A stretch of 64,000 nucleotides of DNA, taken from positions 1 to 64,000 of IMG/VR virus record IMGVR_UViG_3300020463_001735; one strand, written 5' to 3'. The position numbers and the translations under genes were made by a program. How positions within the stretch are numbered: the first letter of the stretch is position 1; each line of letters begins with the position of its first letter. Positions 8,066 through 24,172 of the stretch are shown here, piece after piece. Below the pieces are notes generated by a model. That model saw nothing but the letters and a program-made list of their open reading frames with translations, had not been told where the DNA came from and did no database searches. The stretch is from a virus.

Positions 8066-9283
8066 ATGGCTTTACAGATAAGACGTGGTACCGACGCACA
8101 GAGACAAGGAATAACACCTAAAGCAGGTGAACCAATCTTTACAACAGATACAAAAAAGTTGTTTATAGGAGATGGATCAACAGCTGGTGGTGTTATTGTA
8201 GACACAACAGGTAGTCAATTAAGTGATATAATCGAAGATACAACACCACAACTAGGTGGGTCATTAGATCTCAATAATCAAAATATAACTGGAACAGGTA
8301 ACATTAACATTACCGGACAAATTTCTGCTTCTTCTATTGATCTAAAAGGTTCTATATTTGCTGATGATTCAACACTGCTCGTAGATGGTATTTCTGGAAA
8401 AATTGTTGGTCCTGTAGAATCTAACGTTATCGGAAATGTTACTGGCAACGTAACAGGTAATGTTACAGGTAATTTGACAGGTGATGCAAATGGTAATCAC
8501 TCAGGTACATTTGATGGAACAGTTACAGCAGTTGGTCAGTTTGAAGGACAAGTTTTAGGTTCAATCTTTGGTGATGATAGCACTATGTTAATTGACGGTG
8601 TAAACAATAAAATTGTTGGACGAATTCAGACTACAGAAATTATAGATATAGATGCAAACGCACTTGCTTCTGGTGTAAATGCACTAAGAACAACAGGATA
8701 TATGCAACCAACTGGTTTAAATTCAGGTATAGGAATACAAACAAAGGCTGCTAGAAATAGTGGATCAAATACTCCTGTTACATTACAACCAGGAGACTTT
8801 ATCAAAGATATTATTGCAGCAGGTTATGATGGCACAGACTATACCACTTGTGCTGTGATTAAAATGGGCACAGACAAATATAAAACTATCCAAACAGGAA
8901 AGATGGCTGGTAGAATGATCTTTACAGCATATAAAGATGACGGTACATTTGGTTTAGATACTATTATGGTTTTCCAAAGTGATGGTAAATTATCAATTGG
9001 TGCTGGCGACAATCCTCAAGCTAAATTAGATGTTGCTGGCGATGGAAAATTTACAGGCACAGTAAATGCTCCAGCTTTCCAAGGTGATGTTACCGCAGAC
9101 GATTCAACTGTAATGTTCAACAGTAACACAGGACAAATTACTGCTCCAGGCACTGTAACCCTTGCTAGTTATACAACTACAGCAAGAAATGCATTAACGG
9201 CTGCTAACGGCATGATAATTTATAACACAACTACAAGTAAGTTAGAAGCATATGCTGGCGGTAGTTGGGTAGCTTTACACTAA
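8066..9283 (+). CDS. Tail-fibre-like virion protein with Mtd-like N-terminus
   Basis: This is a 405-aa structural protein. Residues 1-45 (MALQIRRGTDAQR, ITPKAGEPIF, KKLFIGDGS) match the N-terminal domain shared by the major tropism determinant of Bordetella phage and many fibre proteins. The middle is repetitive: a GNVTG tract and three blocks of the form DDST-x-hydrophobic (near residues 98, 170 and 345). The C-terminal 35 residues (MIIYNTTTSKLEAYAGGSW) are a cap seen in fibre and tip proteins. It probably contributes to host contact. It sits at the left edge of the metabolic island, and its stop overlaps the convergent gene by 4 bases. Confidence 0.78.
   Translation: MALQIRRGTDAQRQGITPKAGEPIFTTDTKKLFIGDGSTAGGVIVDTTGSQLSDIIEDTTPQLGGSLDLNNQNITGTGNINITGQISASSIDLKGSIFADDSTLLVDGISGKIVGPVESNVIGNVTGNVTGNVTGNLTGDANGNHSGTFDGTVTAVGQFEGQVLGSIFGDDSTMLIDGVNNKIVGRIQTTEIIDIDANALASGVNALRTTGYMQPTGLNSGIGIQTKAARNSGSNTPVTLQPGDFIKDIIAAGYDGTDYTTCAVIKMGTDKYKTIQTGKMAGRMIFTAYKDDGTFGLDTIMVFQSDGKLSIGAGDNPQAKLDVAGDGKFTGTVNAPAFQGDVTADDSTVMFNSNTGQITAPGTVTLASYTTTARNALTAANGMIIYNTTTSKLEAYAGGSWVALH
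8435..8494 (+). repeat. 12-bp coding repeat (NVTG units)
   Basis: Four tandem 12-base units encode N-V/L-T-G, plus a diverged fifth unit (DANG), inside the fibre gene. Units differ at synonymous sites (GTT/GTA, GGC/GGT), so they are maintained at the protein level. Such NVTG runs are typical of beta-structured fibre shafts in marine phages. Confidence 0.7.
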
Positions 9284-9936
9284 GTTTTTTTTTCGTAATT
9301 TTCTACTACACGTTTTTGCCAAGGCACTGTAAAGTCCCACATATTCACAGTTTCATCACTTTCAACTGATTCTATTGCTTTTTCCCAGGGCACTGTCATT
9401 AAATGTGTCTTTAGTATCATTCTTTCATTATCAGTTGCATTGGCAACACCATGAAAACGATTAACATTTAAAAAACTTGGATTAAAATATTCGTGGCTTT
9501 CAATTTTATTAGATGGTTTGTTATCTAATGTGTCATAAAAATCAATTACTGTTTTACCTCTAAGTGGAATGTTAAAAGCACTAAGAGCCCTAAAATTGAC
9601 AGCAGTATGTGGCGGTAGTAATCCTCCAGGAGGAAACCAAATAAAAGTAAATCTTATTACATGTTTTATTTCATCCCAGTTTAATTTGACATCAGATTTT
9701 ATTGCAATATTTGTTACCCTGGCATATAGTTCGTTCCATAACGGAATATTACAATCATAACACAAATTATAGATTGTTTGTTTTGTTGCATCAGTTCCTA
9801 TAACAGCATGATCTCCTATTTTAGATTTTACTTTTGTTTTAAAAAAGTGATCTAATTCTTCTTTATCCGATTCAAAGAAATCATAACCTTGTGTTTCTGC
9901 ATATCTATCTTCAAACTTATATCTAAAGTTACCCAT
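9280..9936 (-). CDS. 2OG/Fe(II) oxygenase-like protein, AspH-like
   Basis: This 218-aa protein has the cupin-type arrangement of aspartyl/asparaginyl beta-hydroxylases: FPPGGLLPPH (H110), then FRALSAFNIPL, and a second histidine H162 in RFHGVANATD followed by R172. The residue two after H110 is Ala, not Asp, so the usual HxD carboxylate is missing. Mammalian AspH also binds iron with only two histidines, so activity is plausible. It is the last gene of the minus-strand oxygenase operon, overlaps the upstream gene by 8 bases, and converges on the fibre gene. The Shine-Dalgarno is GGGAGG. Substrate is unknown. Confidence 0.65.
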   Translation of the reverse strand: MGNFRYKFEDRYAETQGYDFFESDKEELDHFFKTKVKSKIGDHAVIGTDATKQTIYNLCYDCNIPLWNELYARVTNIAIKSDVKLNWDEIKHVIRFTFIWFPPGGLLPPHTAVNFRALSAFNIPLRGKTVIDFYDTLDNKPSNKIESHEYFNPSFLNVNRFHGVANATDNERMILKTHLMTVPWEKAIESVESDETVNMWDFTVPWQKRVVENYEKKT

Positions 9937-10777
9937 TGTTTACCTCCCAACAATTTTCATAGTCAAAACTTAATCTATACAAATATCTATCTCCTTCAAC
10001 TGCATTACGTTTATGAATACTATGGAACTGATCCATAAAAATAAAATCTCCAGGTTGCCAATCATCATGATGCCAAATATATTTGTCTTGAAAAATGTGT
10101 GCCATTAATTTATCAAAGATAGGTTGCTTGTCTAACTTCTCTTCTTTACTGTCTCTAAGCCACATTTCTCTGATGTAATGAAATGTAAAGTATAATCCTT
10201 CATCACCATCATAAGGATGTGTATATACCAAAGGCTTGGTAACACCATATTTAAAATCTCTTGCGCCGCCTTTAAACATTTTTAATTCTTTGTCATCTTC
10301 GTCTAAGTCATAAAATGTTCCGTTTTCAAATTTGAATGTACAATCTATTTGTTTGTAAAAGTTTTTATCTTCTGCACTTAAATCTCTATATGCTTGTCTA
10401 GTATCACAAAAGCTGGTTACACTATTTTCGCCAGGACGTACACAATAAAGGGCTACACAGCATTCTTTGCCGCTTTTCCTACCATTACCATTACTATGCC
10501 AATCCAATTCTTTGTCTGCAAATATACCAATTTTCTCACCGTCTTTGCGTTCGTTAGTGACTCTAAACAAGCCAGGATAATCTGGGTGCATAAAAAACTG
10601 CTCTGGTTTAAGTATATTACCAATTAGTTCACATACTCTAAGTATACCTGCTTCGTCTAAATTTTGATTTCTAACAAGTACTACATTATCTTTTACAATG
10701 TTCTTACCCCAATCTTGAACTTCCGTATCTGTCATTTTGTCAAAATCAATTTCGTATCTTACAGCATCCATCTGCAT
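9929..10777 (-). CDS. TauD/TfdA-like 2OG/Fe(II) oxygenase with altered HxD
   Basis: This 282-aa protein follows the TauD layout: an N-terminal VLVRNQNLDEAGIL block, the proximal iron motif at residues 94-96 in LDWHSNG, and the distal histidine H255 in FMDQFHSIHKR, placed 6 after Asp as in TauD, with arginines R264/R268 that could hold 2-oxoglutarate. The proximal motif reads H-S-N, so the metal-binding Asp is replaced by Asn. It may have altered chemistry or activity; a halogenase-like role (which uses Ala/Gly) is not indicated. ATG 10777 has AGGAG ten bases upstream. It overlaps the neighbouring gene as TAATG. Confidence 0.7.
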   Translation of the reverse strand: MQMDAVRYEIDFDKMTDTEVQDWGKNIVKDNVVLVRNQNLDEAGILRVCELIGNILKPEQFFMHPDYPGLFRVTNERKDGEKIGIFADKELDWHSNGNGRKSGKECCVALYCVRPGENSVTSFCDTRQAYRDLSAEDKNFYKQIDCTFKFENGTFYDLDEDDKELKMFKGGARDFKYGVTKPLVYTHPYDGDEGLYFTFHYIREMWLRDSKEEKLDKQPIFDKLMAHIFQDKYIWHHDDWQPGDFIFMDQFHSIHKRNAVEGDRYLYRLSFDYENCWEVNNG

Positions 10778-11505
10778 TAGTTATTTTCTCCTAATAAAAT
10801 TTTTTTTGGATTTTGTGTTTTTCCGTTTACGTAATTACGCCACAGTACAGCATTTTCGAGTTCAACATTAAACTCTTCTTTACTTAATTTACCTATACTA
10901 AAATTTCCTACAGTGTCCCAAACATCTGCAACAAGATGCCATCTATCTGTTTTTCCGTTATTTTTAACATAATGATAAGGACTTACATCAGCCATATAAC
11001 AACCACCTTCTTCTAATTTGTATGTGTGATCACCATGAACAAAATCCGTGCCTTCTGTAACTATAGGTATATGCAATTTAAACCCGCCGCCATCACTGTG
11101 CTTATGTATAATACCCTGTGGTGGCAAATAAGATAACCTTACTCTTCTAGGATTCATACCCTTTTCATATAAGAAATTAACAATTTGTTTCCATATACCT
11201 TTACAAGCAATAGTTTCTACTTCATAGTCTAACATATGATATATTTTATGTTGCCTAGCATAATCTAAATTAAAATATATACGAGGATTAGGATTGGTTT
11301 TATCTTGTTCTGAATAAGGAGGATCTTGTAATCCGACGTTAAAATTAAATCCATTATATAGACTACCATCTTGTGAAGTTATACACAAACCATGTAATCC
11401 TCCTTTTTGGATATCATTTGATTTATTTTCTTTTAATAGATCGTATAGTTCTTTTTTTAATTGTTTTGTGTCAAACTTCCAACTATTTTTTACCACATAG
11501 TTCAT
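10777..11505 (-). CDS. 2OG/Fe(II) oxygenase-like protein (AspH/cupin type)
   Basis: This 242-aa protein has a clear iron site: HKHSD (H136-x-D138) after YLPPQGII, the distal H178 in SPYHYVKNNG, and R188 in TDRWHLV. This matches the beta-hydroxylase-type double-stranded beta-helix. Its N-terminal part has GLCITSQDGSLYNG, echoed in the 14247-14879 protein (GLSITSADGGLSG), so the two are probably paralogues. ATGA-type overlap links it to the upstream gene. Likely reaction: hydroxylation using 2-oxoglutarate and O2; substrate unknown. Confidence 0.72.
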   Translation of the reverse strand: MNYVVKNSWKFDTKQLKKELYDLLKENKSNDIQKGGLHGLCITSQDGSLYNGFNFNVGLQDPPYSEQDKTNPNPRIYFNLDYARQHKIYHMLDYEVETIACKGIWKQIVNFLYEKGMNPRRVRLSYLPPQGIIHKHSDGGGFKLHIPIVTEGTDFVHGDHTYKLEEGGCYMADVSPYHYVKNNGKTDRWHLVADVWDTVGNFSIGKLSKEEFNVELENAVLWRNYVNGKTQNPKKILLGENN

Positions 11506-12152
11506 ACAAGTAAACTTTCCTTATTAGGTAAGTTATCGTATGCTATACCAAAAATTAAAACAATTCTTATATTATTAGAAGGATTTACAACTCTGTGCAA
11601 CCATCCTGTATTTACAAAATATGCTTCTCCAAGTGTCATATTTAAACTTACTTCTTCACTTTTTGTTTTCCATTGAAATAAACTTCCTTCTGTCTGTACA
11701 GGAATTTGCACACGGCATAACACACTTGTATCAGTATCTATATGATAGTTAAGTTCATTACCACCGTGCATGACGCTTATACGTGTTCTATAGGGTGTTT
11801 TAAACTTGGTGTTTAAATATTTTTGTATATGATCGCTTTCAATGTCATTTCGCCAAATTGTGTAGTTAGTTTCATTTATAACATCATCTGAAGAGCATTG
11901 TTGTAAAAGGATTTGTGAATAAGTTTCGCTTGCAGTAAACGTATTTTTTACATCACAGTGTTGACTGATTTGATAATTATCACCTCCTAAATCGTTAGCT
12001 TTGTACGAACATGCAATTTGAAAAATTTGATCAACTACTTCTTGTGGTACATCATCAGCTACTGTTCCGTGTGTAAGCATTTGATGTCTTCTAGGTCCTG
12101 TGCCTTTCACTCTGCTTCTACGTGTTTCTTTAATTAAACATTTTTCTGTCAT
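11502..12152 (-). CDS. 2OG/Fe(II) oxygenase-like protein
   Basis: This 216-aa protein has HxD as YHIDTDTS (H137/D139), the distal H186 in GWLHRVVNPS, and R196 in NNIRIVLIFG. The order HxD, about 47 residues, H, 10 residues, R is the usual cupin oxygenase pattern. The N-terminus is basic and Arg-rich (KETRRSRVKGTGPRRHQ). It is part of the nine-gene minus-strand operon with a 4-base overlap to the next gene. Substrate unknown. Confidence 0.7.
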   Translation of the reverse strand: MTEKCLIKETRRSRVKGTGPRRHQMLTHGTVADDVPQEVVDQIFQIACSYKANDLGGDNYQISQHCDVKNTFTASETYSQILLQQCSSDDVINETNYTIWRNDIESDHIQKYLNTKFKTPYRTRISVMHGGNELNYHIDTDTSVLCRVQIPVQTEGSLFQWKTKSEEVSLNMTLGEAYFVNTGWLHRVVNPSNNIRIVLIFGIAYDNLPNKESLLV

Positions 12153-12159
12153 CTCTATC

Positions 12160-12831
12160 CTATCTATTGAAAGCTGGATCTAACCATTCTGTTTTTGTTA
12201 TCGGTCGGCTTACAGTCATTTTAAATAAAGACTTTTCTAGTAACTGTGTATATAGTGGATTTTGTTCTCCATGCCAAGGAGATCCGATACATAAAGTAAT
12301 TTTTTCCTCAGGATCAGGATCAATGCTATGTGCATGACTGCCGTCCATTGCATAGCTGTTGTAATATTCAGGAACGTATATTTTGTTATAATTTTTATCA
12401 ATAAAATATAATTTACCAATATTTCCATTTAACACAATTCGGTACTTATATTGTAATGTTCCTATTTCAGATTCTGCACTATCCAGATGAATATTTAATC
12501 CTGTATGAGGATTAGTCCTTAAAATAGTTACCCGTCCAGGAGGAGACATAAAAGGAAAAATTTTTTCTTGGCAGATTTTTTGTATAGTAGGACATTTTTT
12601 TCCTGCTGTAGTGTATTCAAATTGTCCTTGTGTTGTATCAATATGTGTACCGTCATTTAGTTCTACCCTACCGCCCATTCGTCCGCCGCCGTTGTAAATG
12701 GCTATCATGCGGCAACCTCTAAACTCGTTCCAATGATGTACGTCTGCAGATAATTCTAGTACCTCTTGTAGCATGGCTTGTCTTTCGATATCTGTAACAG
12801 CTATGTCAAGAGCGGCAAATGTAAAACTCAT
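12160..12831 (-). CDS. 2OG/Fe(II) oxygenase-like protein
   Basis: This 223-aa protein contains NIHLDSAESEIG with HxD at H115/D117, preceded by ILRTNPHTG, and a downstream AMDGSHAHSIDPD segment offering H166 or H168 as the distal ligand. The final arginine is less clear than in its neighbours; K177 may serve. The N-terminal GCRMIAIYNGGGRMGGR segment is distinctive. It overlaps the desaturase stop by one base (TAATG). Family assignment rests on the motif pair and on the operon context. Confidence 0.6.
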   Translation of the reverse strand: MSFTFAALDIAVTDIERQAMLQEVLELSADVHHWNEFRGCRMIAIYNGGGRMGGRVELNDGTHIDTTQGQFEYTTAGKKCPTIQKICQEKIFPFMSPPGRVTILRTNPHTGLNIHLDSAESEIGTLQYKYRIVLNGNIGKLYFIDKNYNKIYVPEYYNSYAMDGSHAHSIDPDPEEKITLCIGSPWHGEQNPLYTQLLEKSLFKMTVSRPITKTEWLDPAFNR

Positions 12832-13547
12832 TAATTAACCTTTATTAATTTAATAAACCATTTAGTAGGATCAAACTCCCACCATTTTTGCCCTATTTCA
12901 TAACTCCCAGCACGTCTGTGATGATTGCGGTGCCAGCCCTCTCCAGCAGTAAGTATATTTGCAATCCAACTGTTATTTGGTTGTGCATTCTTATGTCCTA
13001 AAATGTTTAATATTCCGTACCCATGAAATGCTAAAACTACCGGCATAGCATAACCAAATATCATAAGCAAAGGATCAATTAAACTAAAAACTACAATTAT
13101 ACCAATATTTAAATGAAAATAATACTTGTGAAAGAATCTAAGTAAAGAATCTTGTAATAGTCTTTTTATAAACTTACGTTTAATTTTAAATCCATATCCC
13201 CATGTGTTTACGTATACTGCCCATATACCTTTTACACTGTGACTATGTGGATCTAACTCTGTATCACTGTGTGCATGATGTTGTCTATGAGTAGCGGCCC
13301 ATGTCATTGCAGGACCTGCACCTGCAAACATACCTAATATATTTACTGCCCAAGGATACCATTTGCCTGCTTCAAAGGTTTTATGACTGTAGTATCTATG
13401 ATAACCACCACTTATTGCCACTATAGCTATTATATACCACCACAAAAAAGCGCCGATGAACATCCACAATTCTCCGAACATAAATGCAGGTATTAGCATC
13501 AAATGACAAAATGTATGATTAATTAAAAGTTTTGTTGTGTTTTCCAT
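12831..13547 (-). CDS. Fatty-acid desaturase (delta-9 / stearoyl-CoA type)
   Basis: This is an integral membrane di-iron desaturase of 238 aa. The three histidine boxes are intact: HRYYSH at 50-55, HRQHH at 87-91 and HRNHH at 206-210, within GEGWHRNHH. Hydrophobic segments at about 15-45, 67-83, 145-165 and 168-185 fit the four-helix topology. The family introduces a cis double bond in acyl chains bound to CoA or lipid. At 238 aa it is somewhat short for the family. It lies among 2OG oxygenase genes in one operon, so it may remodel host membrane lipid or make an acyl group for a cluster product. Confidence 0.88.
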   Translation of the reverse strand: MENTTKLLINHTFCHLMLIPAFMFGELWMFIGAFLWWYIIAIVAISGGYHRYYSHKTFEAGKWYPWAVNILGMFAGAGPAMTWAATHRQHHAHSDTELDPHSHSVKGIWAVYVNTWGYGFKIKRKFIKRLLQDSLLRFFHKYYFHLNIGIIVVFSLIDPLLMIFGYAMPVVLAFHGYGILNILGHKNAQPNNSWIANILTAGEGWHRNHHRRAGSYEIGQKWWEFDPTKWFIKLIKVN

Positions 13548-13548
13548 A

Positions 13549-14247
13549 TTAGTATTTATTTGGTTGTTTATCTACTGGGTATGCAACACTGATATTACTA
13601 GCAGTGCCTTCCTTTACAGCCTGTTCTTGGCCGCTTACTAAGTACTCTTTAAATTTAATATATTGCGGATTGTCACCTTGAATATGTTGCCACTTGTCAT
13701 TAGGATTTGCTTTTAGCTTCCATTCACGTAACTCAGGACGCATATTTACTGGCGCACAAAGTTCAAACCTTTCATTACCAGAACCAGGACAAATTTTGTG
13801 ATAGTAATGGGTTGCATTTAAATACCAAACAGTACCGTTCGGCACTTGAAGATTAAAAATGTCCTCACCTGTATCTACATCAATGTTTGCGTTACCTTGC
13901 ACTGTGACGTGAAACTGTCCATCTAGATAGTATCTATCTTTGTGCCAGACACTCATTTCTTCACTGTCATCAGAAGTATATGCAAGCACTATCCAATCTA
14001 CCTCTAAAGGTTTTTGATATATTTTTTCAAACTCTACAGCATGTTTATCTACTACTTGTGCAAATTCTTTGATAATAGGCAGTTGACTTGTCTTATGAAA
14101 ATGCCAAGTTTTATATGTGTGAAAAAATTTCCCACTAATATTACTTGACTCTGTCATAGGAAAATTGTCAATAATATATTTGCATTGTTCTAAGCACCAT
14201 TTAGGATCAAACTTATCAAAAATAGTATGTGTTGGTCCTATTTGCAT
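13549..14247 (-). CDS. 2OG/Fe(II) oxygenase-like protein
   Basis: This 232-aa protein has VWHKDRYY (H102/D104), then HVTVQGNANIDV and a distal-histidine segment NATHYYHKICPG (H147 or H150), with R160 in NERFELCAPV. The GxxxxL..GTVWYLNA order is typical of cupin-type 2OG oxygenases. A C-terminal tail of about 60 residues past the core is unusual and unassigned. The AspH-like gene upstream overlaps its ATG. Substrate unknown. Confidence 0.68.
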   Translation of the reverse strand: MQIGPTHTIFDKFDPKWCLEQCKYIIDNFPMTESSNISGKFFHTYKTWHFHKTSQLPIIKEFAQVVDKHAVEFEKIYQKPLEVDWIVLAYTSDDSEEMSVWHKDRYYLDGQFHVTVQGNANIDVDTGEDIFNLQVPNGTVWYLNATHYYHKICPGSGNERFELCAPVNMRPELREWKLKANPNDKWQHIQGDNPQYIKFKEYLVSGQEQAVKEGTASNISVAYPVDKQPNKY

Positions 14248-14879
14248 TATGCAAACTCCACATTTTTTATTACAAAATCAACTGTTTCAGGCACAGTTTT
14301 AACATTTAACACTACCCAATAACTAGGATCGAAACTTGCATTAAACAGTGTATGAACTTTTGCTGTGTTTAAAAAATGCATGTGACCACTAGTCCAATGT
14401 AAAATTTTATTATCTAAAATAAAATGTACTCTAGGAGCATTAAAATTTACAAGAGGCATAATAATTCTAAAACTACTAAAATCTTTTCCGTAAAAATCTC
14501 TATGCGGCGGAAAAAATCCTCCTGGATTTAATTTAAGAATATGGCTTCTAAAAATTTTATCTTTTATAGGCTTAATTAACGTATTTAATTTTTCATATTC
14601 TAAAACAGGTGTAGGAACATTAAAACTATCTTCTAACCAATTGGTTCCATGTTCCTTGTTATATTCTTTGAGAGAATCTAAGTCAGGTCTGCCTGACAAA
14701 CCTCCATCTGCACTAGTAATGCTAAGTCCCCATCTGTCTACATTTTTTCTTGGATTATATCTTACATATTCAAAATTTTCCTCGGTCCAGTCAACAAAAG
14801 CATCTGTATCATGTAGATTAGGACTTAGTAGTATTTGATCTCCATAGGCTGTAAGTGTAGAATATAATTCTATTGACAT
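14247..14879 (-). CDS. 2OG/Fe(II) oxygenase-like protein (AspH/cupin type)
   Basis: This 210-aa protein has PGGFFPPHRDFYG with HxD at H126/D128, R138 in SSFRIIMPLV, and distal H176 in NTAKVHTLFNAS. The N-terminal GLSITSADGGLSG block resembles the 10777-11505 protein, suggesting duplication within the operon. The start ATG 14879 overlaps the end of the GNAT-like gene by 10 bases. Confidence 0.72.
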   Translation of the reverse strand: MSIELYSTLTAYGDQILLSPNLHDTDAFVDWTEENFEYVRYNPRKNVDRWGLSITSADGGLSGRPDLDSLKEYNKEHGTNWLEDSFNVPTPVLEYEKLNTLIKPIKDKIFRSHILKLNPGGFFPPHRDFYGKDFSSFRIIMPLVNFNAPRVHFILDNKILHWTSGHMHFLNTAKVHTLFNASFDPSYWVVLNVKTVPETVDFVIKNVEFA

Positions 14880-15436
14880 TCATTTTCCTTTTTTGTTTTC
14901 CATTCATCTATTGATAGACTAGGCAATTTTATATCTTGTCCTTTGTATATAACACTTTGAAAACAATTTGTACTATCTTCATTGCAGGTTCTTAGCATCA
15001 AAGGATGTAATTTCCAAGAGCTATCTAGTTTGCTTGCTAATCTATTTAATGCTTTTCTCCTCTTAAGATCTTGCATACTAATAAAAACAGTGTCGTATGT
15101 ATTTAAATAATTTAGTTGGGCTTCGGCTAAATGTATGGCAGGAGTACGCTCATTTGTATCGTAATAAAGATGACTTCTTCTATGTGCAGGATTGTAATAG
15201 GTCCTAGTTAACAATCTATAACACCCATTGTAAAATTCTTGTATTGTTGCAAATGCTATTAGTTCTTGTTTTTCGACCAAAAAGAACCATTCTACAAATC
15301 TAGTTTTGTAAATTTCTGGAAGTCTATCGAACCAATCTGTGTTACGCCAGTCACCCGGATAACACAGTCTTTTAAAATATTCTAGTTCAGCTAGGAATCT
15401 ATCCTCACCAAATTCTTGTAAAGTTTGTATGTGCAT
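14870..15436 (-). CDS. GNAT-like acyltransferase (tentative), first gene of oxygenase operon
   Basis: I take ATG 15436 (MHIQTLQEFGEDRF), 188 aa; a longer frame to 15496 would run through both -10 and -35 boxes of its promoter. Residues 50-80 (FFLVEKQELIAFATIQEF, then CYRLLTRTYYNP) resemble the central strands of GNAT-fold acyltransferases, but the acetyl-CoA loop is not clear. It is the promoter-proximal gene of the minus-strand operon and has both a sigma70-type promoter and a late octamer upstream. The assignment is tentative. Confidence 0.5.
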   Translation of the reverse strand: MHIQTLQEFGEDRFLAELEYFKRLCYPGDWRNTDWFDRLPEIYKTRFVEWFFLVEKQELIAFATIQEFYNGCYRLLTRTYYNPAHRRSHLYYDTNERTPAIHLAEAQLNYLNTYDTVFISMQDLKRRKALNRLASKLDSSWKLHPLMLRTCNEDSTNCFQSVIYKGQDIKLPSLSIDEWKTKKENECQ

Positions 15437-15443
15437 TTTTATG

Positions 15444-15472
15444 TTGACTTTTCTATTTATTAATGTTATTAT
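15444..15472 (+). promoter_or_regulatory. Sigma70-type promoter for the plus-strand biosynthetic operon
   Basis: TTGACT (15444-15449), 17-base spacer, TATTAT (15467-15472; five of six matches). It points at the operon starting at 15514, with a predicted leader of about 35 bases. Its -10 almost coincides with that of the opposite promoter. Confidence 0.75.
15454..15461 (-). promoter_or_regulatory. T4-like late promoter octamer AATAAATA
   Basis: On the minus strand AATAAATA lies 18 bases before ATG 15436, between the sigma70-type -10 and the start codon. It would give a very short late leader. It suggests the oxygenase operon can be read in both early and late phases. Confidence 0.5.
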
Positions 15473-15496
15473 ACAACAATATAGCCTTACTGTCAA
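15468..15496 (-). promoter_or_regulatory. Consensus sigma70 promoter for the oxygenase operon
   Basis: On the minus strand TTGACA (15496-15491), a 17-base spacer, and TATAAT (15473-15468): a perfect match to the consensus at both boxes and spacing. The -10 overlaps that of the divergent plus-strand promoter by five bases. Confidence 0.85.
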
Positions 15497-15513
15497 GTAA
15501 ATATTGGATGCAA

Positions 15514-16353
15514 ATGATTAATATTGTAGTAACAAGCAAACCTGTAGACGGACTTTTGTACTATAGTTACGAATACTGTGACTTATTAAATAAGGCAGGT
15601 TACCCTGCACGGCTGGTGATAATTACGCATCGAAACTTTCAAACATTAGATTATATTCAATCTATACAGAAAAAGTATACATATTTTAAGAATATTGCTG
15701 TAGACAGTTACGAATGTGATGAAAATGATACTACCCTAATTCTAGGTAGAAGTATGCTTACTTTAAGTTGGGAAAGTTTCAATGACTATACTATAACACA
15801 ACAAACGCTTTTGAAGAAACTTTTTAGTTGTAAATTGATCAGTGTGTATTCGGAAAATCATCCTACACTTTACCCTAAAGCAGTAAAATTTTACAATCCT
15901 AAACAAATTATAGACTTGTGTGATACTGATGTGTATCCTAATGGGGTAGGTAAACATTTTGAAAAACATATAAACTTCTCTATATACAAACCACATACAG
16001 ACAACATAAAATTTAAATATTTATTTTTTGGAACGAATGAAAAATATTATGCGGCGGCTGAAAAAGCGTTAGTAAACTTTCCTAATTACGGAATATTAAC
16101 ATATAATGCAAAGTATGTAAATTACAGTTACAATAATGTGTTTGTACCTGTAGATAATGTTCTGGGTATGTTTGAAACATATGTGTATACAAAAGAAACA
16201 TTCGATCCTGCGCCAAGGATTATACAAGAGTGTAAATACTATGATAAAGAAATAATTTACTTTAGAGATAAGAATATTGTAGATGGTGGGAGTGTATATT
16301 GGAATAGAGATATTATTGAGCCTGATATTTCTCCAATTGTAGAAGCGTTATGA
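15514..16353 (+). CDS. Glycosyltransferase-like protein (tentative)
   Basis: In-frame ATGs are at 15508 and 15514; GGA at 15506-15508 sits 5 bases before 15514, so I use that (279 aa, MINIVVTSKPVDGLLYYSYE). The N-terminus reads like the first Rossmann strand of GT-B enzymes, with a YEYCDLLNKAGYPARLV helix. Near residue 230, ETFDPAPRIIQECKYYDKE resembles the donor-sugar binding helix of GT-B transferases (E-x-x-x-x-x-E type). No complete motif is present, so confidence is limited. It is the first gene of the plus-strand operon; the next gene overlaps by 4 bases. Confidence 0.45.
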   Translation: MINIVVTSKPVDGLLYYSYEYCDLLNKAGYPARLVIITHRNFQTLDYIQSIQKKYTYFKNIAVDSYECDENDTTLILGRSMLTLSWESFNDYTITQQTLLKKLFSCKLISVYSENHPTLYPKAVKFYNPKQIIDLCDTDVYPNGVGKHFEKHINFSIYKPHTDNIKFKYLFFGTNEKYYAAAEKALVNFPNYGILTYNAKYVNYSYNNVFVPVDNVLGMFETYVYTKETFDPAPRIIQECKYYDKEIIYFRDKNIVDGGSVYWNRDIIEPDISPIVEAL

Positions 16354-16856
16354 AAAAATATCTTAATGAAAGATCTATGTGCTTACATAGCCAAAGCGGG
16401 TTTACTCCTAAAGAGTGGTTTACTTTGTATACAAAATTTCAGAATATTGAACCAAGACTAGTTCAGATATACAATTTTAATAAAAAGGAACTTTCTTTTG
16501 AGATGGAAGATATTGAAGGTTTCGTGTTGTCTGATACTGACGAAGTTAAGAAACTAGAAAGATGGAAACGTAGAAAGATACAATCTGAAGTGATAAGCAT
16601 ATGGGGAACCATACAAACTTTTAGTGTAGATGATAAACATGGTACTGGTACAGCAACATTTATACATAAAGATTATTGTACGAATAATTTAATGTATGAT
16701 ACAAACAAAAAACAAGTAAGATTGATCGACCCTGATGCTTTTCACAAAGAATCGCCAGGAGAATTTCCCCCTATTTGGCACGGACTATTTATAGACACCC
16801 TGTATAATACTAGCCAATGGGAAAAATACGATCATAGACTATGGGACCAACCATGA
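16350..16856 (+). CDS. Small protein-kinase-fold phosphotransferase (C-lobe like)
   Basis: This 168-aa protein has FIHKDYCTNNLMYD, giving H106-x-D108-x4-N113, the catalytic-loop pattern of kinase-like and aminoglycoside-type phosphotransferases. It is followed by LIDPDAFH with D127 in the DFG position. A hinge-like EMEDIEGFVL lies near residue 51. The usual nucleotide-binding N-lobe with a Gly-rich loop and Lys is mostly missing, since only about 45 residues precede the hinge. It could be a minimal sugar or lipid kinase or an inactive scaffold. ATGA overlaps occur at both ends within the operon. Confidence 0.6.
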   Translation: MKKYLNERSMCLHSQSGFTPKEWFTLYTKFQNIEPRLVQIYNFNKKELSFEMEDIEGFVLSDTDEVKKLERWKRRKIQSEVISIWGTIQTFSVDDKHGTGTATFIHKDYCTNNLMYDTNKKQVRLIDPDAFHKESPGEFPPIWHGLFIDTLYNTSQWEKYDHRLWDQP

Positions 16857-17203
16857 AGATACAACCTAGATGTTTAGCATTTAATACTAGAGACAATAAA
16901 GGAGCCGCATATACTTCAGACGGCTTTATGTTACCATGTTGTTGGATGGATGACCCTCCTGTATATAGATATGTAAAAGCATGTGGATTGAAAGACGAAG
17001 AATTACTTCTGTCAAACAACAAAAATTTAGATGATATATTCACATCAGATCAGTGGGAAAATTTTTTTCAAACACTTTTGAATGATCCAGAAAATGCTTC
17101 ATATATGTGTAAAAAGAAATGTGGCATAGATATTGATAAAGATAAAGTTAGAGAAGAAGAACGTAGAGAAGTAAAGGCACAGGCAAATGGCGCGGATTAC
17201 TGA
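16853..17203 (+). CDS. Stand-alone SPASM-like Fe-S domain protein
   Basis: ATG 16853 overlaps the upstream stop (ATGA); 116 aa. It holds six cysteines: C7, C29, C30, C44, C86 and C90. The segment TSDGFMLPCCW and the closing YMCKKKCG resemble the auxiliary-cluster (SPASM/twitch) part of radical SAM enzymes; compare TSTRGELLPCSW and CKIMCKNC in the 20723-22075 protein. Here the domain has no radical SAM core. The very next gene is a radical SAM protein lacking such a domain, so the two may work as one split enzyme. The C-terminus is charged (KVREEERREVKAQ). Confidence 0.6.
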   Translation: MKIQPRCLAFNTRDNKGAAYTSDGFMLPCCWMDDPPVYRYVKACGLKDEELLLSNNKNLDDIFTSDQWENFFQTLLNDPENASYMCKKKCGIDIDKDKVREEERREVKAQANGADY

Positions 17204-17942
17204 CGAATACGTAATAATGCAAAAACGTTGTAGGCCTAATATAGATGCATCGCATCGTTGTATATTTAGATGTCCACAATGTATTAGGCAAAAAACATCT
17301 AGTCAAGAACAGATACGCAGAAGTTTTGATCTTGAAGAGGATCAATTTAAAAAAATATTAGACTACTATGATTTTGGTATAACATTTTGTGGACAAATAT
17401 CAGATCCAATCTATCATCCTAAGTTTTTAGACCTGCTTAAAATGTGTGACGGTCAAGGCAAGGCAGTACGTGTTGCAACAGTAGGTAGCGGAAAAAAAGA
17501 TGCTTGGTGGGATGAAGCATATAGTTATGGCGTTGGAGAAAACGCTTGGTACTTTGGCGTAGACGGCATAGACGAAAAAAGCGAACTATACAGGGTAGGT
17601 TCTAAGTTTCAAGATGTATGGAACAGAATGAAGCAAGGAAGAGATTTAGGTCATACCATTGTTTGGCAATATATTATTTTTGGATACAACGAACATGAAG
17701 TAGATGACGCAATAGAAATAGCAAAACAAGAAAACTTCAGTTTATTGTTAATTAATACTAATAGAGGTTTTAATCCTGACAGTCCTTTGCTAAGAAAAAA
17801 CGTAGATTTTAAATTGACTTCTCCAGATAAAAAACATTTACAAGAAAGAGTCAAAAAAGAATATTGGGGACACAAAACACAAAGTTTGGAAACTTGGCAT
17901 AAGTTGCCAAGAAAACGTGCTGAAAGAATGGGTATTACATGA
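17187..17942 (+). CDS. Radical SAM protein without SPASM domain
   Basis: This 251-aa protein has the [4Fe-4S] motif C25-x3-C29-x2-C32 in HRCIFRCPQC. A GITFCGQISDPIYHPKF segment stands where GGEP is usual, and YFGVDGIDE follows near residue 127. It is too short for a C-terminal auxiliary-cluster domain. It overlaps the SPASM-like gene by 17 bases, which suggests a two-subunit enzyme. Radical SAM enzymes cleave S-adenosylmethionine to start radical reactions such as methylation, epimerisation or peptide crosslinking; the substrate here is unknown. Confidence 0.78.
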   Translation: MARITDEYVIMQKRCRPNIDASHRCIFRCPQCIRQKTSSQEQIRRSFDLEEDQFKKILDYYDFGITFCGQISDPIYHPKFLDLLKMCDGQGKAVRVATVGSGKKDAWWDEAYSYGVGENAWYFGVDGIDEKSELYRVGSKFQDVWNRMKQGRDLGHTIVWQYIIFGYNEHEVDDAIEIAKQENFSLLLINTNRGFNPDSPLLRKNVDFKLTSPDKKHLQERVKKEYWGHKTQSLETWHKLPRKRAERMGIT

Positions 17943-18691
17943 ACCAAGATTTAATTGGAAGTGAACATAGAGATACTATTGTAAAATGGGACGGTGGAAA
18001 TGATACACTTAAATTATTTATACGGAACCAAAAAGAACTAGGTGGTCAGTGGTATTACAACAACAAAAAAATTACCTACAAATACAACACAAATGGGTTT
18101 AGAGCACAAGAATTTAATAATATAGATTGGGCTAACAGTGTTTTAGTTTTAGGTTGTTCTAATGTTTTAGGAGTCGCAAATCGTATAGAAGATAGTGTTC
18201 CTAGTGTTTTACAAGACATATTAGGAATCCCATGTATAAACTTAGGTATAAGTGGGTCAGCAGTAGATCATGCCTGTTGGAACAGTCTAATACTGCATGA
18301 GAACTATCCGCACCCAAAAGCAATAGTTCAAGTTTGGTCTAGTACACGTAGATATACAGATTTTTTAGATGTAGGGATGGTTAAAGCTGACTATCCTATT
18401 TTTGGTGTTCCAATGTGTCCAAGCAATGTACAACCTTGGAAGTCACATTACTGCGTAAAACATTCGTGGGAATTGCGTTCTAAATTTTATGTGGCCGCAG
18501 ATAGAGCTTTATGGAAAGACAAAACTATTTACTTTGAGGCAACCTTTTTTGAACACAGTGCAAAGCAATTAGAAATCCCTTGGGTAAATGAATGCGATAA
18601 GGGCAGAGATTTTGATCACCCTGGATACGGTTCTTGCAAAGCGATGGCAGAATTAATTGGTAAAAATTTAAAAGAAAGAGGTATAAAATGA
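17939..18691 (+). CDS. SGNH/GDSL-like hydrolase
   Basis: This 250-aa protein has VLVLGCSNVLG with the nucleophile candidate S74, an INLGISGSAVDH block II near residue 100, VQVWSSTRR in block III, and the C-terminal dyad D224-x-x-H227 in DFDHPGYGS. This order matches SGNH esterases/acetyltransferases. The oxyanion Asn of block III is not evident. Such enzymes often deacylate or acylate glycans. Two further SGNH proteins occur at 28282-29591. It is coupled by ATGA overlaps to both neighbours. Confidence 0.68.
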   Translation: MNQDLIGSEHRDTIVKWDGGNDTLKLFIRNQKELGGQWYYNNKKITYKYNTNGFRAQEFNNIDWANSVLVLGCSNVLGVANRIEDSVPSVLQDILGIPCINLGISGSAVDHACWNSLILHENYPHPKAIVQVWSSTRRYTDFLDVGMVKADYPIFGVPMCPSNVQPWKSHYCVKHSWELRSKFYVAADRALWKDKTIYFEATFFEHSAKQLEIPWVNECDKGRDFDHPGYGSCKAMAELIGKNLKERGIK

Positions 18692-19002
18692 TTTTTTGGT
18701 TAGGATATACAATAATGTTTTTTAATGAGGGCTTTGTAATAATGCGTCATATAAGTCCTTGGTTTGCAAATAAACGTAAAAAACTACACGAAAAATTTGG
18801 CAGAGAAAAAGTAAAACGTATACATGGATTTACTGATTGGACTTGGATAATACTAATTGCGATAGGCACATACTTAGAATATGAAAACTGGAAACTATAT
18901 GCAAGTGTTGTTCTCGGCTTTTGGTTGATCGTTGCAGTTGGAGTATATCTACCTATGTTAATAAGAAAATTAATGAAGAAAGAAACAGGATACGTAAAAT
19001 GA
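18688..19002 (+). CDS. Small membrane protein, 104 aa
   Basis: Three hydrophobic stretches are visible: residues 1-17, about 51-61 and 70-92, separated by a basic segment (FANKRKKLHEKFGREKVKR) and by EYENWK. It is probably an inner-membrane protein. I recognise no family. ATGA overlaps both neighbours, so it is a full member of the operon and may anchor or export a product. Confidence 0.65.
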   Translation: MIFWLGYTIMFFNEGFVIMRHISPWFANKRKKLHEKFGREKVKRIHGFTDWTWIILIAIGTYLEYENWKLYASVVLGFWLIVAVGVYLPMLIRKLMKKETGYVK

Positions 19003-20072
19003 TATCATATGATGGTTGGGATAGAGAATATAAACAACATAAGTCTGCATACTTAGATATTTTTGATTCATTTATGTCTCAAGCAAACTACGAGAATAAT
19101 GAGGAATTTGAAGAATATTTTGCAAACTTTATAGGCAGAAAACATGTTGTCAGTGTAGCAAGTGCAACAGATGCTTTGCATTTTACACTTCAAGCATACG
19201 GAATTTCTGCTAATAATGAAGTTCTTGTTACAGATTTTAGTTGGATAAGCAGTAGTGCTTGTGTCAACATGGTAGGTGCAATACCTATATTTTGTGATAT
19301 TGACATTAACACATATCATATAGATATAGAAAGTGTTAGACGTATGATCACACCAAATACAAAAGCAATAGTGTATCCACACTTGTTTGGTAGCATGTCA
19401 GACACATCTGAATTAGAAAAATTTTGTAAAGAGAAAAAAATAATTTTCATTGAAGATTCAGCACAAAGTTTAGGAAGCAGTCTTAATGGACAAAAAGCAG
19501 GCACTATCGGAGATACTAGTGTTTTTAGTTTTAACAGTAACAAAGTCATTGCCGGTGTAAATGGTGGTGGTGTTGTAATGACAGACGATGAAGAACTTGC
19601 CAAGCGTATAAAAATGATTAGGCGACATGGAAAAAATAAAGATTTTAGTATGCTAGGGTATAATAGTCGTATGTATGTACTTAATGCAATGATTATAAAA
19701 CAAAGACTAAAATTTTACAAAGAAAATCAACTGGTGAGACAAAATATAGCAAATATCTACAACGAAGCTTTTGCAGATTTGCCATTGAAAATACAAGAAA
19801 ATGGCAACGGACTTAATCATAATTATCACAAATATGTAATAAGGACAGAAAATAAAGATACTAGAAAAATGTTAAAGAACGCTTTAAAAGCAAGTATTCA
19901 TTATGAAACACCTTTGTCTAAAAATAGTATGTACAATACTATGAATATGCGAAAAGATGATTGTGTAAGTTCCAAGATTGCTTCTGAAACAGTTCTGTCA
20001 CTTCCTGTACATGCATGGCTAGAAGAACACGAAGTTAATTATGTAATAGACACTGTAAAAAATGCTTTATAA
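18999..20072 (+). CDS. DegT/DnrJ/EryC1/StrS-type PLP aminotransferase
   Basis: I take ATG 18999 (MISYDGWDREYKQ, 357 aa), which overlaps the upstream stop; the frame extends to 18921 inside the membrane protein. Motifs in order: ASATDALHFTLQAYG near residue 50, TDFSWISSSACV near 75, FCDIDINTYHID near 96, IEDSAQSLGS near 150, and the PLP-lysine region FSFNSNKVIAGVNGGG near 175 with K the likely Schiff-base residue. The family makes amino sugars on nucleotide-sugars (or amino-polyketide units). Along with the glycosyltransferases of the island this suggests an aminosugar product. Confidence 0.88.
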   Translation: MISYDGWDREYKQHKSAYLDIFDSFMSQANYENNEEFEEYFANFIGRKHVVSVASATDALHFTLQAYGISANNEVLVTDFSWISSSACVNMVGAIPIFCDIDINTYHIDIESVRRMITPNTKAIVYPHLFGSMSDTSELEKFCKEKKIIFIEDSAQSLGSSLNGQKAGTIGDTSVFSFNSNKVIAGVNGGGVVMTDDEELAKRIKMIRRHGKNKDFSMLGYNSRMYVLNAMIIKQRLKFYKENQLVRQNIANIYNEAFADLPLKIQENGNGLNHNYHKYVIRTENKDTRKMLKNALKASIHYETPLSKNSMYNTMNMRKDDCVSSKIASETVLSLPVHAWLEEHEVNYVIDTVKNAL

Positions 20073-20715
20073 AAATAAATTCGGCGAAGTAAAAATACTT
20101 GAGCCTATCGAATTGTATGATGGAAAATCTATCGGCATATCTATGTCAGGTGGGGCAGACAGCACAATGTTGTGTTACTTATTAGCAAATACAATTACCT
20201 ATCAAAAACTTAATATAGAAATACAACCTTACAATGGATATGATATTTCTGTACCTACTGATTCGGCTGGTCTTCCTATTATAATAAAATATATTCAAAA
20301 AAAGTTTCCTGATGTAAAATTACATTGGCCTATTGCTTGTGTATTTGACACTAATGGAGATGATATAAAAAATACATATATAAGACCTTTAATAGAAAGA
20401 CTATACGATAAAGGTGTAGTAGATGAAGTAATACAGGCAGTATGTCTTGGACCTCCTAAAGATGTACAAGAAAGTTTTATTGGAAATGATTATTTTAGAA
20501 GACCCGGGTATCAATTATGGGAAGAAGTAGCCCAAGCTAAGAATCATGCCCCGTTTGTAAACGTAGATAAAAGATTTATTATGCAGTGTTATAAAAGTTT
20601 TGATATTGAGGAATTAAGAGAACTAACAAATAGTTGCACAGTACCGATTGGAAATTGCGGAGAGTGTTGGTGGTGTCAGGAACGAACTTGGGCTATAAAC
20701 GAGGTAAATAAATAA
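20062..20715 (+). CDS. QueC-like PP-loop ATPase, copy 1
   Basis: This 217-aa protein has the PP-loop SGGADST at residues 29-35 and a C-terminal cysteine set C192, C199, C202, C205 (NCGECWWCQERTWA), as in QueC, which binds zinc. QueC turns 7-carboxy-7-deazaguanine into preQ0 by adenylating the carboxylate and adding ammonia. The middle region differs from housekeeping QueC as I know it, so a different carboxylate or amide may be the substrate. A second copy is at 23333-24172. It lacks the TKGGPGD tail of that copy; an equivalent stretch starts the next gene. QueC-like folds also occur in antiphage systems. Confidence 0.72.
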   Translation: MLYKNKFGEVKILEPIELYDGKSIGISMSGGADSTMLCYLLANTITYQKLNIEIQPYNGYDISVPTDSAGLPIIIKYIQKKFPDVKLHWPIACVFDTNGDDIKNTYIRPLIERLYDKGVVDEVIQAVCLGPPKDVQESFIGNDYFRRPGYQLWEEVAQAKNHAPFVNVDKRFIMQCYKSFDIEELRELTNSCTVPIGNCGECWWCQERTWAINEVNK

Positions 20716-20722
20716 TTTCATA

Positions 20723-22075
20723 ATGTCAGATCAAATTGCCAAACACATTACAAAAGGTGGTCCAGGAGATAGATATCTTGGAGGCGGAAAAGTAGACACA
20801 AGTTCATGGTTTAATGAATTTCCTTTACTAGAAGATCAAATTAGAAATCAAGATATCTGGTTTTGTAGTGCTCCTTTTCAGTTGCTTTACACAAGCACAA
20901 GAGGAGAACTATTGCCCTGCTCTTGGGCTAAAGAAGGTCTTGGACCTAATATTAAGAATGTTAAATTAGCAGACTATTTTGTTCATGATAAAGCACTGAA
21001 TAAAATGCGTAAAGAAATGACCACTCCAGGAAGCAATTTAGAAACTTGTAAAATAATGTGTAAAAATTGTTTATATCAAGAAGAAAAATATGGTAGATCG
21101 AGAAGACAAGCAAGTTTAAAAATACAAACCAACGATGTAGGTATTTGGCCCGGTATTAGTAGAGCTGTGCAAACTTTTAAAGATACAGGAAAAGGTAGAA
21201 TTACTGAACAAATATTTGAAGTACAGGTGAAAGCATTTGGCAATCAATGTAACCTTGACTGCTATATGTGTATCCCGTATGATTCAAGCACAAGATTAAA
21301 GACCATACATTCAACTGAACTTGAAGAGGAAAATATCTTTTCACAATATGCAAAAACACCAATTGAATCATTTAGAGATGAAAGATTAGAAAATGTTATA
21401 GATCAAATTGTTGATGTAGCTCCGTATATAAAAAACTTAAAGTTCATCGGTGGCGAACCTTTGGTAATGAAACAGTTTTATGATCTCTTAGAGAAAATTG
21501 TAGCCACAGGGTATGCTAAAAACATGCTTGTCAAATATCAAACAAACATGACCGTACTTCAATTAGAAAAAATAAAACTTACAAAATTTATTCCAGAATT
21601 TGAACTTTTTGAATTTACAGTATCTGTAGATGGTGTAGGCAAATGGAACGACTACATTAGGCGTAGATCATCATGGGACAACATAACAGGAAACATAGAT
21701 ACTGTACTAAAATATCCTAATGTAAAAGTAAATATTAACGGAACTATAAGTTTCTTAAGTGTGTTAAAGTTTTATAAACTAATAGAATGGTTTGAACAAA
21801 ATGATCATAGACTAGAACAAGTAAATTGGTCAAACATAAGAGGACCAGCTAAATTGTGTGCAAATGTGTTACCTGAAAAAATTAAACAAAAATTAATTCC
21901 AATGTATACAAATTTTCCTGATATTGTTAATGTATTGAAACAAGATAACGGTGGATTAGATTTTCAAGACACGCTTAAATACTTGCTAATGATTGATAAT
22001 CATTACAGAGGAACAAAATGGGGGATGGAACTGTTTGACGTGTTTCCAGAACTAGAGGAGTTTTACAATGAGTAA
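20723..22075 (+). CDS. Radical SAM protein with N-terminal twitch/SPASM-like cysteines
   Basis: This 450-aa protein has N-terminal cysteines C48, C66, C109, C113 and C116 (FCSAPF, LLPCSW, CKIMCKNC), then the radical SAM motif C176-x3-C180-x2-C183 (CNLDCYMC) and GGEPL at 243-247, SVDGVGKWNDYIRR near 304. The auxiliary-cluster domain precedes the core, which is the reverse of most SPASM enzymes. Its N-terminus carries TKGGPGDRYL, which matches the C-terminal tail of the other PP-loop protein. A similar layout is present in the 30251-31684 protein. Substrate unknown, possibly a peptide or nucleoside-like compound. Confidence 0.82.
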   Translation: MSDQIAKHITKGGPGDRYLGGGKVDTSSWFNEFPLLEDQIRNQDIWFCSAPFQLLYTSTRGELLPCSWAKEGLGPNIKNVKLADYFVHDKALNKMRKEMTTPGSNLETCKIMCKNCLYQEEKYGRSRRQASLKIQTNDVGIWPGISRAVQTFKDTGKGRITEQIFEVQVKAFGNQCNLDCYMCIPYDSSTRLKTIHSTELEEENIFSQYAKTPIESFRDERLENVIDQIVDVAPYIKNLKFIGGEPLVMKQFYDLLEKIVATGYAKNMLVKYQTNMTVLQLEKIKLTKFIPEFELFEFTVSVDGVGKWNDYIRRRSSWDNITGNIDTVLKYPNVKVNINGTISFLSVLKFYKLIEWFEQNDHRLEQVNWSNIRGPAKLCANVLPEKIKQKLIPMYTNFPDIVNVLKQDNGGLDFQDTLKYLLMIDNHYRGTKWGMELFDVFPELEEFYNE

Positions 22076-22766
22076 AATGGAGAAAAAACTTTTAAAGCTA
22101 TTAGATAGTAGAAAGCATGTGTGGGAGTTTGATACTGAAAATATTCCAGAACAAAGCCTAGTGAAGGAATGCTTAACCAATGCATGGAAAGTTACACCGT
22201 CAAAAAATAATTTTATGCCTTATCATGTAAATGTAATAGGACCAAAGGATCAAGTTTTAAAAGATAAAATACATGCTTTGTCGAGACTTAATAAGAAAAG
22301 AACTAACGAAAGAGCAAATGTGAATAACATAGAAAATTTTGAAGAAGACGGTTCTAACCCTAATTTTTCATTCTACAATACAGCTCCTTATGTTTTAGTT
22401 TTTAGTCAAAGAGTAGCAGAGCCAAATCCATACATTGCTAATGCTATAATTGAACAAAATGATATCTATGAACAGATGCACGAACATCTGTTCGATGACA
22501 TTCTAAGCACTACCTGTATAGAAATTGGTATGTTTATGCAGAATGCTACTGCATTCTTGTTGGAAAAAGGAATAGATACTACCTACATAAAATGTTATCC
22601 CTATGAATATTCGCTTTGGAAGCCTGATTTTCCTTTATTAGCAGGGCCTGTTATGCTTATTGCAGGATTAGGATATAGCAAACTTTCTAGAAGAGATGCG
22701 ATGACCAACGAACAAAAAAAGCAAGATTATAAACCAGAACCTGAAGAAATTGTGAGGTGGTTTTGA
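22068..22766 (+). CDS. Nitroreductase-family flavoprotein, copy 1
   Basis: This 232-aa protein begins with the family signature SRKHVWEFDTENIPEQSL and AWKVTPSKNNFMPYHVNVI, the FMN-binding region. Further FMN contacts are likely near TCIEIGMFMQNATAFLLEKG (residue 145) and in PVMLIAGLGYS near 200. The family uses FMN to reduce or oxidise small substrates, and includes dehydrogenases of peptide azolines. GAGGAG lies 7 bases before ATG 22068. It overlaps the upstream radical SAM gene by 8 bases and the next gene as TTGA. Confidence 0.78.
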   Translation: MSKMEKKLLKLLDSRKHVWEFDTENIPEQSLVKECLTNAWKVTPSKNNFMPYHVNVIGPKDQVLKDKIHALSRLNKKRTNERANVNNIENFEEDGSNPNFSFYNTAPYVLVFSQRVAEPNPYIANAIIEQNDIYEQMHEHLFDDILSTTCIEIGMFMQNATAFLLEKGIDTTYIKCYPYEYSLWKPDFPLLAGPVMLIAGLGYSKLSRRDAMTNEQKKQDYKPEPEEIVRWF

Positions 22767-23332
22767 AAAATCTAAGACACTTGATATTGTTAATAGATTT
22801 CACGGGACATCCGCCTTTGGGGGATGAACATACAAACAATTTAAGATACAGTGCATTAAACACACTAGCATTTGGACTACCAGAAGATTTGACAGAAGAC
22901 TATGTGATTATATCTGATCATTTCGATCACCGTGCATCTCATGAAAAAATTTCTGAAGTCAAAAAAATGGTTACAATAGAAAAAAGACATACTTGGATAA
23001 ACATTAATCCAGATGAACCTATTACTCCGCCAGAAATTGTAGATATGTTAAAAGAAAAATCAATTTATATTAACAATGTGATTATTGGGGGAACAAACAC
23101 AGCAGGATGTGTGCTACGCAGTAGGCCTTACTCGGCCATACACTGGGCAAAATGTGGATATGATGTAAAAATATTTCTGCAGATGTGTGCAGAATATCAA
23201 ATGCCAGGACACAATCAAGCTGAAAGAAATATGTATGCGTTTACAGAAATGTGGAATGAAATTAAAACACAAGGATTAACACACAAAATAGATCCGGTGA
23301 CTAACATAAAAGAATTATTTAAGGAGAAATAA
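22763..23332 (+). CDS. Isochorismatase/cysteine-hydrolase-like protein
   Basis: The start is TTG 22763, overlapping the upstream stop as TTGA, with GAGG five bases before it; 189 aa. The pattern D12 in ILLIDFTG, a lysine near 97-99, and C116 in IIGGTNTAGCVL, followed by YSAIHWAKCGYDVKIFL, fits the Asp-Lys-Cys triad and Rossmann-like fold of isochorismatase and nicotinamidase enzymes. Substrates in this family include nicotinamide, carbamoyl compounds and N-carbamoyl amines. It lies between the two triads of PP-loop, radical SAM and nitroreductase genes. An AAGGAG Shine-Dalgarno for the next gene overlaps its end. Confidence 0.6.
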   Translation: MKNLRHLILLIDFTGHPPLGDEHTNNLRYSALNTLAFGLPEDLTEDYVIISDHFDHRASHEKISEVKKMVTIEKRHTWININPDEPITPPEIVDMLKEKSIYINNVIIGGTNTAGCVLRSRPYSAIHWAKCGYDVKIFLQMCAEYQMPGHNQAERNMYAFTEMWNEIKTQGLTHKIDPVTNIKELFKEK

Positions 23333-24172
23333 ATGAAGATCACACACGGTAATCAAACTATAGACCTTTTTCCAGGAGAACTACCTAAAGTTTGTCCTAT
23401 ATCTTTGTCAGGAGGACTTGATAGTGCTAGTTTAATGTTTTTAGTTTCTAAACATTTTCCGCAAGTACAAATTATTCCTTACACAGTTAGAGACTTAAAT
23501 GCACCTTTAGACGCAGATGCGGCGGCTGATATTATAAAATGGTTTCAAAAAGAATTTCCAAACAACAATATACCTGATATTGAAATTTATGAATTTAACG
23601 ATCGCACAGAGGACTTTGTTACCTGGGCCGAATGTGACGAAGCAATGGAAAAACATCCGCAACTTGCAGGTATGCGTAGGATACAAGTATCAAAAATAAT
23701 ACAACTTGATCGAATATCTTGGAATTTAATGAAACGTTTTCCAGGCGGAATCAGACTAGATGGTATGACACGTAATCCGCCAACTGAAGATATGGTTATA
23801 GGCGGATTTTATGATATTGCTGAACGTCGTAGAGATAAAGAGTTAGATGAAGTTGAAACTTATAGGCCAAACGAAAACAATCCTCCATTAGGTATATACC
23901 AGGCATATGCAAATGTAGATAAAAAATTTGTAGCAGGCGTGTATTTTGATTATGGGTTAATGGACAGTTTGTTTCCTATGACTAGATCATGTGTTGGTAC
24001 TAGAACACAAACTGAAAACTTTACTCAAGAGTGTAGTAAATGTTTTTGGTGTCATGAAAAGGCATGGGCATTTGGATGGGATGTAAAGAATTTGCCTATT
24101 ATTTGGAATCCTGATACACCTACCTATCTAACAAAAGGTGGTCCAGGTGATAAAAAATTAGAGTATGCATGA
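23333..24172 (+). CDS. QueC-like PP-loop ATPase, copy 2, with C-terminal extension
   Basis: This 279-aa protein has the PP-loop SGGLDSAS at 26-33 and cysteines C220, C234, C237, C240 (ECSKCFWCHEKAWAF), the same C-x2-C-x2-C ending as copy 1 and QueC. A tail of about 40 residues follows and ends with YLTKGGPGDKKLEYA (KGGPGD at 268-273). The insert between 80 and 200 differs from copy 1 (IRLDGMTRNPPTEDMVIGG). It is probably an ATP-dependent amide- or nitrile-forming enzyme; substrate unknown. It opens the second triad of the operon. Confidence 0.74.
   Translation: MKITHGNQTIDLFPGELPKVCPISLSGGLDSASLMFLVSKHFPQVQIIPYTVRDLNAPLDADAAADIIKWFQKEFPNNNIPDIEIYEFNDRTEDFVTWAECDEAMEKHPQLAGMRRIQVSKIIQLDRISWNLMKRFPGGIRLDGMTRNPPTEDMVIGGFYDIAERRRDKELDEVETYRPNENNPPLGIYQAYANVDKKFVAGVYFDYGLMDSLFPMTRSCVGTRTQTENFTQECSKCFWCHEKAWAFGWDVKNLPIIWNPDTPTYLTKGGPGDKKLEYA

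Follow-up and report, generated by a model that had tools for sequence, protein, structure and literature searches.

The window, by which we mean the whole stretch of DNA that was analysed (64 kb of an incomplete virus record of 80,186 bases), contains an island of two divergently oriented operons, and in the gap of 71–77 bases between their start codons, at 15436 (minus) and 15508/15514 (plus), lie two promoter-like sequences with superposed −10 boxes. The features of the island and its junction are as follows.

9280–15436, minus strand: operon of nine genes, described by profile matches.
15508–28298, plus strand: operon of about 14 genes, described by profile matches.
15444–15472, plus strand: predicted plus promoter, TTGACT-17-TATTAT, matching the consensus at 10 of 12 positions (−35 box 15444–15449, −10 box 15467–15472); the same arrangement occurs in the related viral stretches L003, L008, L015 and L046.
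15468–15496, minus strand: predicted minus promoter, TTGACA-17-TATAAT, a perfect consensus (12/12; −35 box 15496–15491, −10 box 15473–15468).
15454–15461, minus strand: T4-type late octamer AATAAATA, 17 bases from the minus ATG and inside the plus spacer; NATAAATA is enriched ahead of starts.

Gene functions in the island rest on profile matches only. The minus operon encodes oxygenase-like proteins (three of the Asp/Arg hydroxylase type and one of the TauD type), a fatty acid desaturase and a GNAT-like protein, the last recognized by a weak match in a homologue only, and its remaining genes had no match; the plus operon encodes a conserved protein without assigned function, radical SAM proteins, a DegT aminotransferase, a QueC-like protein, nitroreductases and a carbamoyltransferase. 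The first plus gene (15508–16353) matched nothing in Pfam, PHROGs or NCBIfam at 0.001; it has 110 relatives in IMG/VR and a single match among phage records, in Pelagibacter phage Mosig EXVC030M (54 % identity), where it is annotated as a putative molybdenum cofactor enzyme. The first minus gene had no relative among phage records, and an alignment search with it led to four loci. At 9280–9283 and 28282–28298 both operons meet oppositely oriented genes; because the stop regions overlap and no terminator-like hairpin was detected, convergent read-through is possible. Terminators were specifically sought at the convergent end near 28290, and none was found.

Comparison of the whole DNA with phage records gave no match. 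The presence of genes for a portal protein, an SbcD-like (gp47) protein and a gp55-type late sigma factor identifies a T4-like phage, and these T4-like core genes, the Mosig homologue and the Mosig-like island layout together place it among the pelagimyophages, the island matching their hypervariable ‘host recognition cluster’ (PMC7029224). Because kinship with Mosig is accompanied by the same divergent island blocks, the host is probably SAR11. In the structural region a single open reading frame of 4955 aa (42126–56993), very large for a T4-like phage, lies beside one of 1205 aa.

Direct reading of the window confirmed every base of the two promoters as described in the earlier note, including the five-base overlap of their −10 boxes (15467–15472 on the plus strand and 15468–15473 on the minus strand), and the late octamer which that note had placed inside the plus spacer for the minus side is indeed there, AATAAATA running from 15461 to 15454 within the spacer at 15450–15466. 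The superposed promoters form an element of 53 bp (15444–15496) in which the plus promoter also has an extended −10 (TGT), the TG lying one base ahead of the −10 box. The predicted starts, both A residues, are 15479 for the plus promoter and 15461 for the minus promoter, a distance of 18 bp; leaders of about 29–35 and 25 bases, respectively, would run from them, and each promoter's −35 box lies within the predicted leader of the opposite promoter. In the 18-bp class of bidirectional promoters, which is the commonest geometry, the −10 boxes are offset by one base and positions −7 and −11 coincide (PMC10268837); the opposite-strand −10 overlap in the window has the same one-base offset and the same coincidence of positions. 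The gene layout fits divergent mRNAs of two operons.

When scored against a consensus tuned to E. coli sigma70, from which the alphaproteobacterial sigma factor of the host may differ, the pair reached 22/24 and the minus promoter ranked top of the 80 promoter-like hits in the scan. The 80,186-base record contains a single exact TTGACA-N16–18-TATAAT, where a shuffled 64 kb would be expected to contain 0.24, and one overlapping pair of at least 22/24 was seen against 0.03 per shuffle, i.e. in about one of 33 shuffled windows, anywhere in the 64 kb; the location of the pair in the gap between divergent start codons raises its significance further. The plus −10 box is not independent evidence, since TATAAT followed by A reads as TATTAT on the opposite strand, and the independent part is therefore the plus −35 box. 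Matches of at least 5/6 to the −35 box occur at 0.7 % of positions, and among the 44 TATTATA sites in the record only that of the window's pair has −35 boxes on both sides. Between 9.3 and 28.3 kb no other hit of at least 11/12 lies shortly ahead of a start.

Eighty of the 110 viral stretches found for the plus-gene family were kept for comparison. L003 and L008 keep the window's gene pair (minus gene 58–59 %, plus gene 69 % identical to those of the window), and their gap carries TTGACT-17-TATAAT (plus) and TTGACG-17-TATAAT (minus) with −10 boxes overlapping by two bases. The corresponding pairs are TTGACA-17-TATTAT/TTGACT-17-TATAAT in L015 and TTGACT-17-TATATT/TTGACT-17-TATAAT in L046, the latter at a junction that lies upstream of the plus-gene homologue, with one short gene between them; an overlap of five bases is found in the window only, against two to three in these four relatives. 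L014 and L017, also read directly, have both −35 boxes at the same spacing and poor −10 boxes. With junctions called from open reading frames, not curated genes, and with shuffles that keep dinucleotides and ignore relatedness, superposed pairs of at least 20/24 were present in four of 39 junction clusters against 0.16 expected. Between L003 and L008 the gap is 94 % identical, compared with 89.5 and 69 % for the flanking coding DNA. This better preservation of the gap than of the flanking genes, together with the recurrence of superposed pairs in relatives, argues that both promoters are real. In the plus-gene tree, in which bootstrap support is not fully settled, the sigma70 type falls in three separate places (the window with L014, L015 and L017, support 100/98; L003 with L008; and L046), reflecting either repeated origin or cassette exchange. 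In many relatives, L002 and L004–L007 among them, the plus gene lies inside an operon without any such promoter, and the layouts of these five say nothing directly about the window promoter.

Beyond this gene family, a scan of IMG/VR for TTGACW-17-TATWATA-17-WGTCAA returned 77 stretches, compared with none when the −35 boxes were scrambled, and the two-base-overlap form returned nine, again against none. Among these 86 stretches there are 61 distinct cores; with near-copies counted, 25 of the stretches are situated at divergent junctions. As strong superposed promoters thus occur in many phages, the window is a good member of this kind and no new kind. The earlier proposal that two divergent promoters control the island is borne out in so far as no other good sigma70-type entry was found for either operon and the pair recurs in relatives.

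T4-like cyanophages use NATAAATA late promoters (PMC2984593). In the present record NATAAATA is rare: it occurs 21 times, where permuted words average 66. Of its 21 copies, 11 lie 5–70 bases ahead of a same-strand start, compared with 4 % for permutations; three stretches of Mosig show a similar rarity and pre-start enrichment. Because NATAAATA is avoided genome-wide and enriched ahead of starts, the minus octamer is unlikely to be there by chance, and it has the attributes of a late promoter, lying ahead of a start in a phage with gp55. It is not kept in the sister sigma70 junctions; in L046 an octamer is found for the plus side rather than the minus. In the same shuffles and junction calls, octamers on both strands were found in 13 of 39 divergent-junction clusters against 0.5 expected; in some of them (L002, L064, L069 and Mosig) the two octamers touch or overlap. 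The window's gene pair is kept in L010 and L027, where the minus gene has a late octamer and a superposed sigma70 pair is absent. To judge from these sequences, some phages drive this kind of island from late promoters and others from host-type ones, and the window is a hybrid in which AATAAATA, serving the minus operon, is added to the superposed sigma70 pair. At the divergent junctions L002:2919–2934, L069:3086–3099 and L096:14410–14429, late octamers of the two strands touch or overlap, and these are candidate bidirectional late promoters; no description of paired opposite-strand late octamers was found in the literature searched.

We think it likely that 15444–15496 is a bidirectional sigma70-type promoter, and we infer from its layout that it would be active in both directions, early in infection and with competition between the two. 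A T4-like pelagimyophage would be expected to place its early genes on host-type promoters, and early expression of the pair is our best guess because the form TTGACT-17-TATAAT also stands 24 and 27 bases ahead of the gp55 and gp47-like genes of the same record. RNA polymerase would bind the shared −10 region in either orientation, guided on each side by a near-consensus −35 box, and RNAs would begin at about 15479 and 15461; a single 53-bp element would in this way feed both halves of the island, with initiation divided between the operons because only one polymerase fits at once. Late in infection gp55 would redirect polymerase, and the AATAAATA octamer would then probably maintain transcription of the minus operon and block the plus promoter, a hand-over that is the least certain step. 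More speculatively, pelagimyophages might time and balance the island via one exchangeable bidirectional promoter cassette, many lineages having paired late octamers and some a swapped-in host-type (early) pair, sometimes with a one-sided late octamer, so that the operon ratio would shift during infection; we put this forward tentatively, as possible rather than probable.

It might be argued that the perfect minus promoter is the sole active one, the plus promoter being a product of the near-symmetry of TATAAT and a chance TTGACT, and that the plus operon starts elsewhere. The plus −10 box does come free from TATAATA, and a 5/6 −35 box at 16–18 bp has a chance of about 2 % per site. However, at four other junctions near-consensus promoters with exact 17-bp spacers are found on both strands, and no other good promoter was found ahead of the plus operon; we regard this explanation as improbable. 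The superposition could also be compaction only, both promoters being used too rarely to interfere and expression being unaffected by exclusion, an account that we consider unlikely but which deserves more weight. It accords with the short gaps (35–110 bp) at most junctions of relatives and with the finding that none of the five E. coli bidirectional promoters tested was active enough at its basal level for competition, which appeared only when one direction was strong (PMC12825309). Yet when one −35 box was strengthened there was strong competition, with repression of the opposite direction, in most cases tested (PMC12825309), and here the −35 boxes match at 6/6 and 5/6, which should raise occupancy.

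Since both promoters are near consensus, competition is plausible in the window, and our prediction is that, with one polymerase at a time on the pair, it is likely to occur. The earlier note had described the two operons as mutually exclusive at initiation, a switch or balance; steric exclusion is established for this class of promoter (PMC12825309) and would, for steric reasons, operate per DNA molecule, but the switch is left unsupported, neither a regulator nor an operator having been found. Competition here would yield a ratio and no on/off state, and the many template copies to be expected per cell also count against a switch. A regulated switch, with a phage repressor acting on a dyad over the −10 boxes, might be suggested by L003 and L008, in which an 18-bp perfect palindrome, ATAGTATAATTATACTAT, covers these boxes (L003:5946–5955 region and L008:5946–5955 region), and an operator role for it is possible. 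However, most of this palindrome arises from two overlapping TATAAT boxes alone, it is absent from the window, L015 and L046, and no known regulator family was matched by the genes adjoining the promoter; we gave the palindrome little weight and consider a regulated switch highly improbable.

The preferred reading, a bidirectional sigma70-type promoter, invokes a kind of element already known from the work of Grainger's group; what is unusual is the near-consensus sequence in both directions, the repeated appearance at three places in the gene tree and the alternation with paired late octamers. By sequence the window pair would be a strong natural bidirectional promoter, and competition between polymerases ought to be measurable there with no activator added; a 2026 study in E. 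coli reached competition only via an improved −35 box or an added activator (PMC12825309). Furthermore, in pelagimyophages, for which a published attempt to predict middle and late promoters failed (PMC7029224), promoter classes become readable from comparative data, namely the avoidance of NATAAATA elsewhere, its enrichment ahead of starts and the junctions carrying paired late octamers or paired host-type promoters. With such classes at the junctions, the timing of the island becomes a testable question.

The prokaryotic bidirectional promoters described by Warman, Grainger and colleagues (PMC12825309, PMC10268837) resemble the window in the one-base −10 offset, in predicted starts 18 bp apart and in accepting polymerase in one orientation at a time. 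The window pair differs in having near-consensus −35 boxes and 17-bp spacers on both sides, strength and competition probably being higher, and in belonging to a phage, with a late octamer added and with starts that are predicted. The divergent Pc/Pr promoters of pLS20 likewise share one stretch of DNA and exclude each other, but there the −35 box of one coincides with the −10 box of the other, and a repressor and DNA looping make the switch (PMC4207663). RB49 and cyanophage S-PM2 have early promoters that overlap late ones (reviewed in PMC2984593): as for the minus operon here, sigma70-like and NATAAATA promoters stand ahead of one gene; in contrast, the early element of the window is two-way and its late octamer serves one direction only. 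A likeness in gene content is offered by the island of Mosig EXVC030M (MT647606) and the pelagimyophage cluster (PMC7029224), which similarly lies beside tail fibre genes in two divergent blocks and contains oxygenase, desaturase, radical SAM, aminotransferase and carbamoyltransferase genes, whereas at the 35-bp Mosig junction overlapping late octamers on both strands replace the sigma70 promoters.
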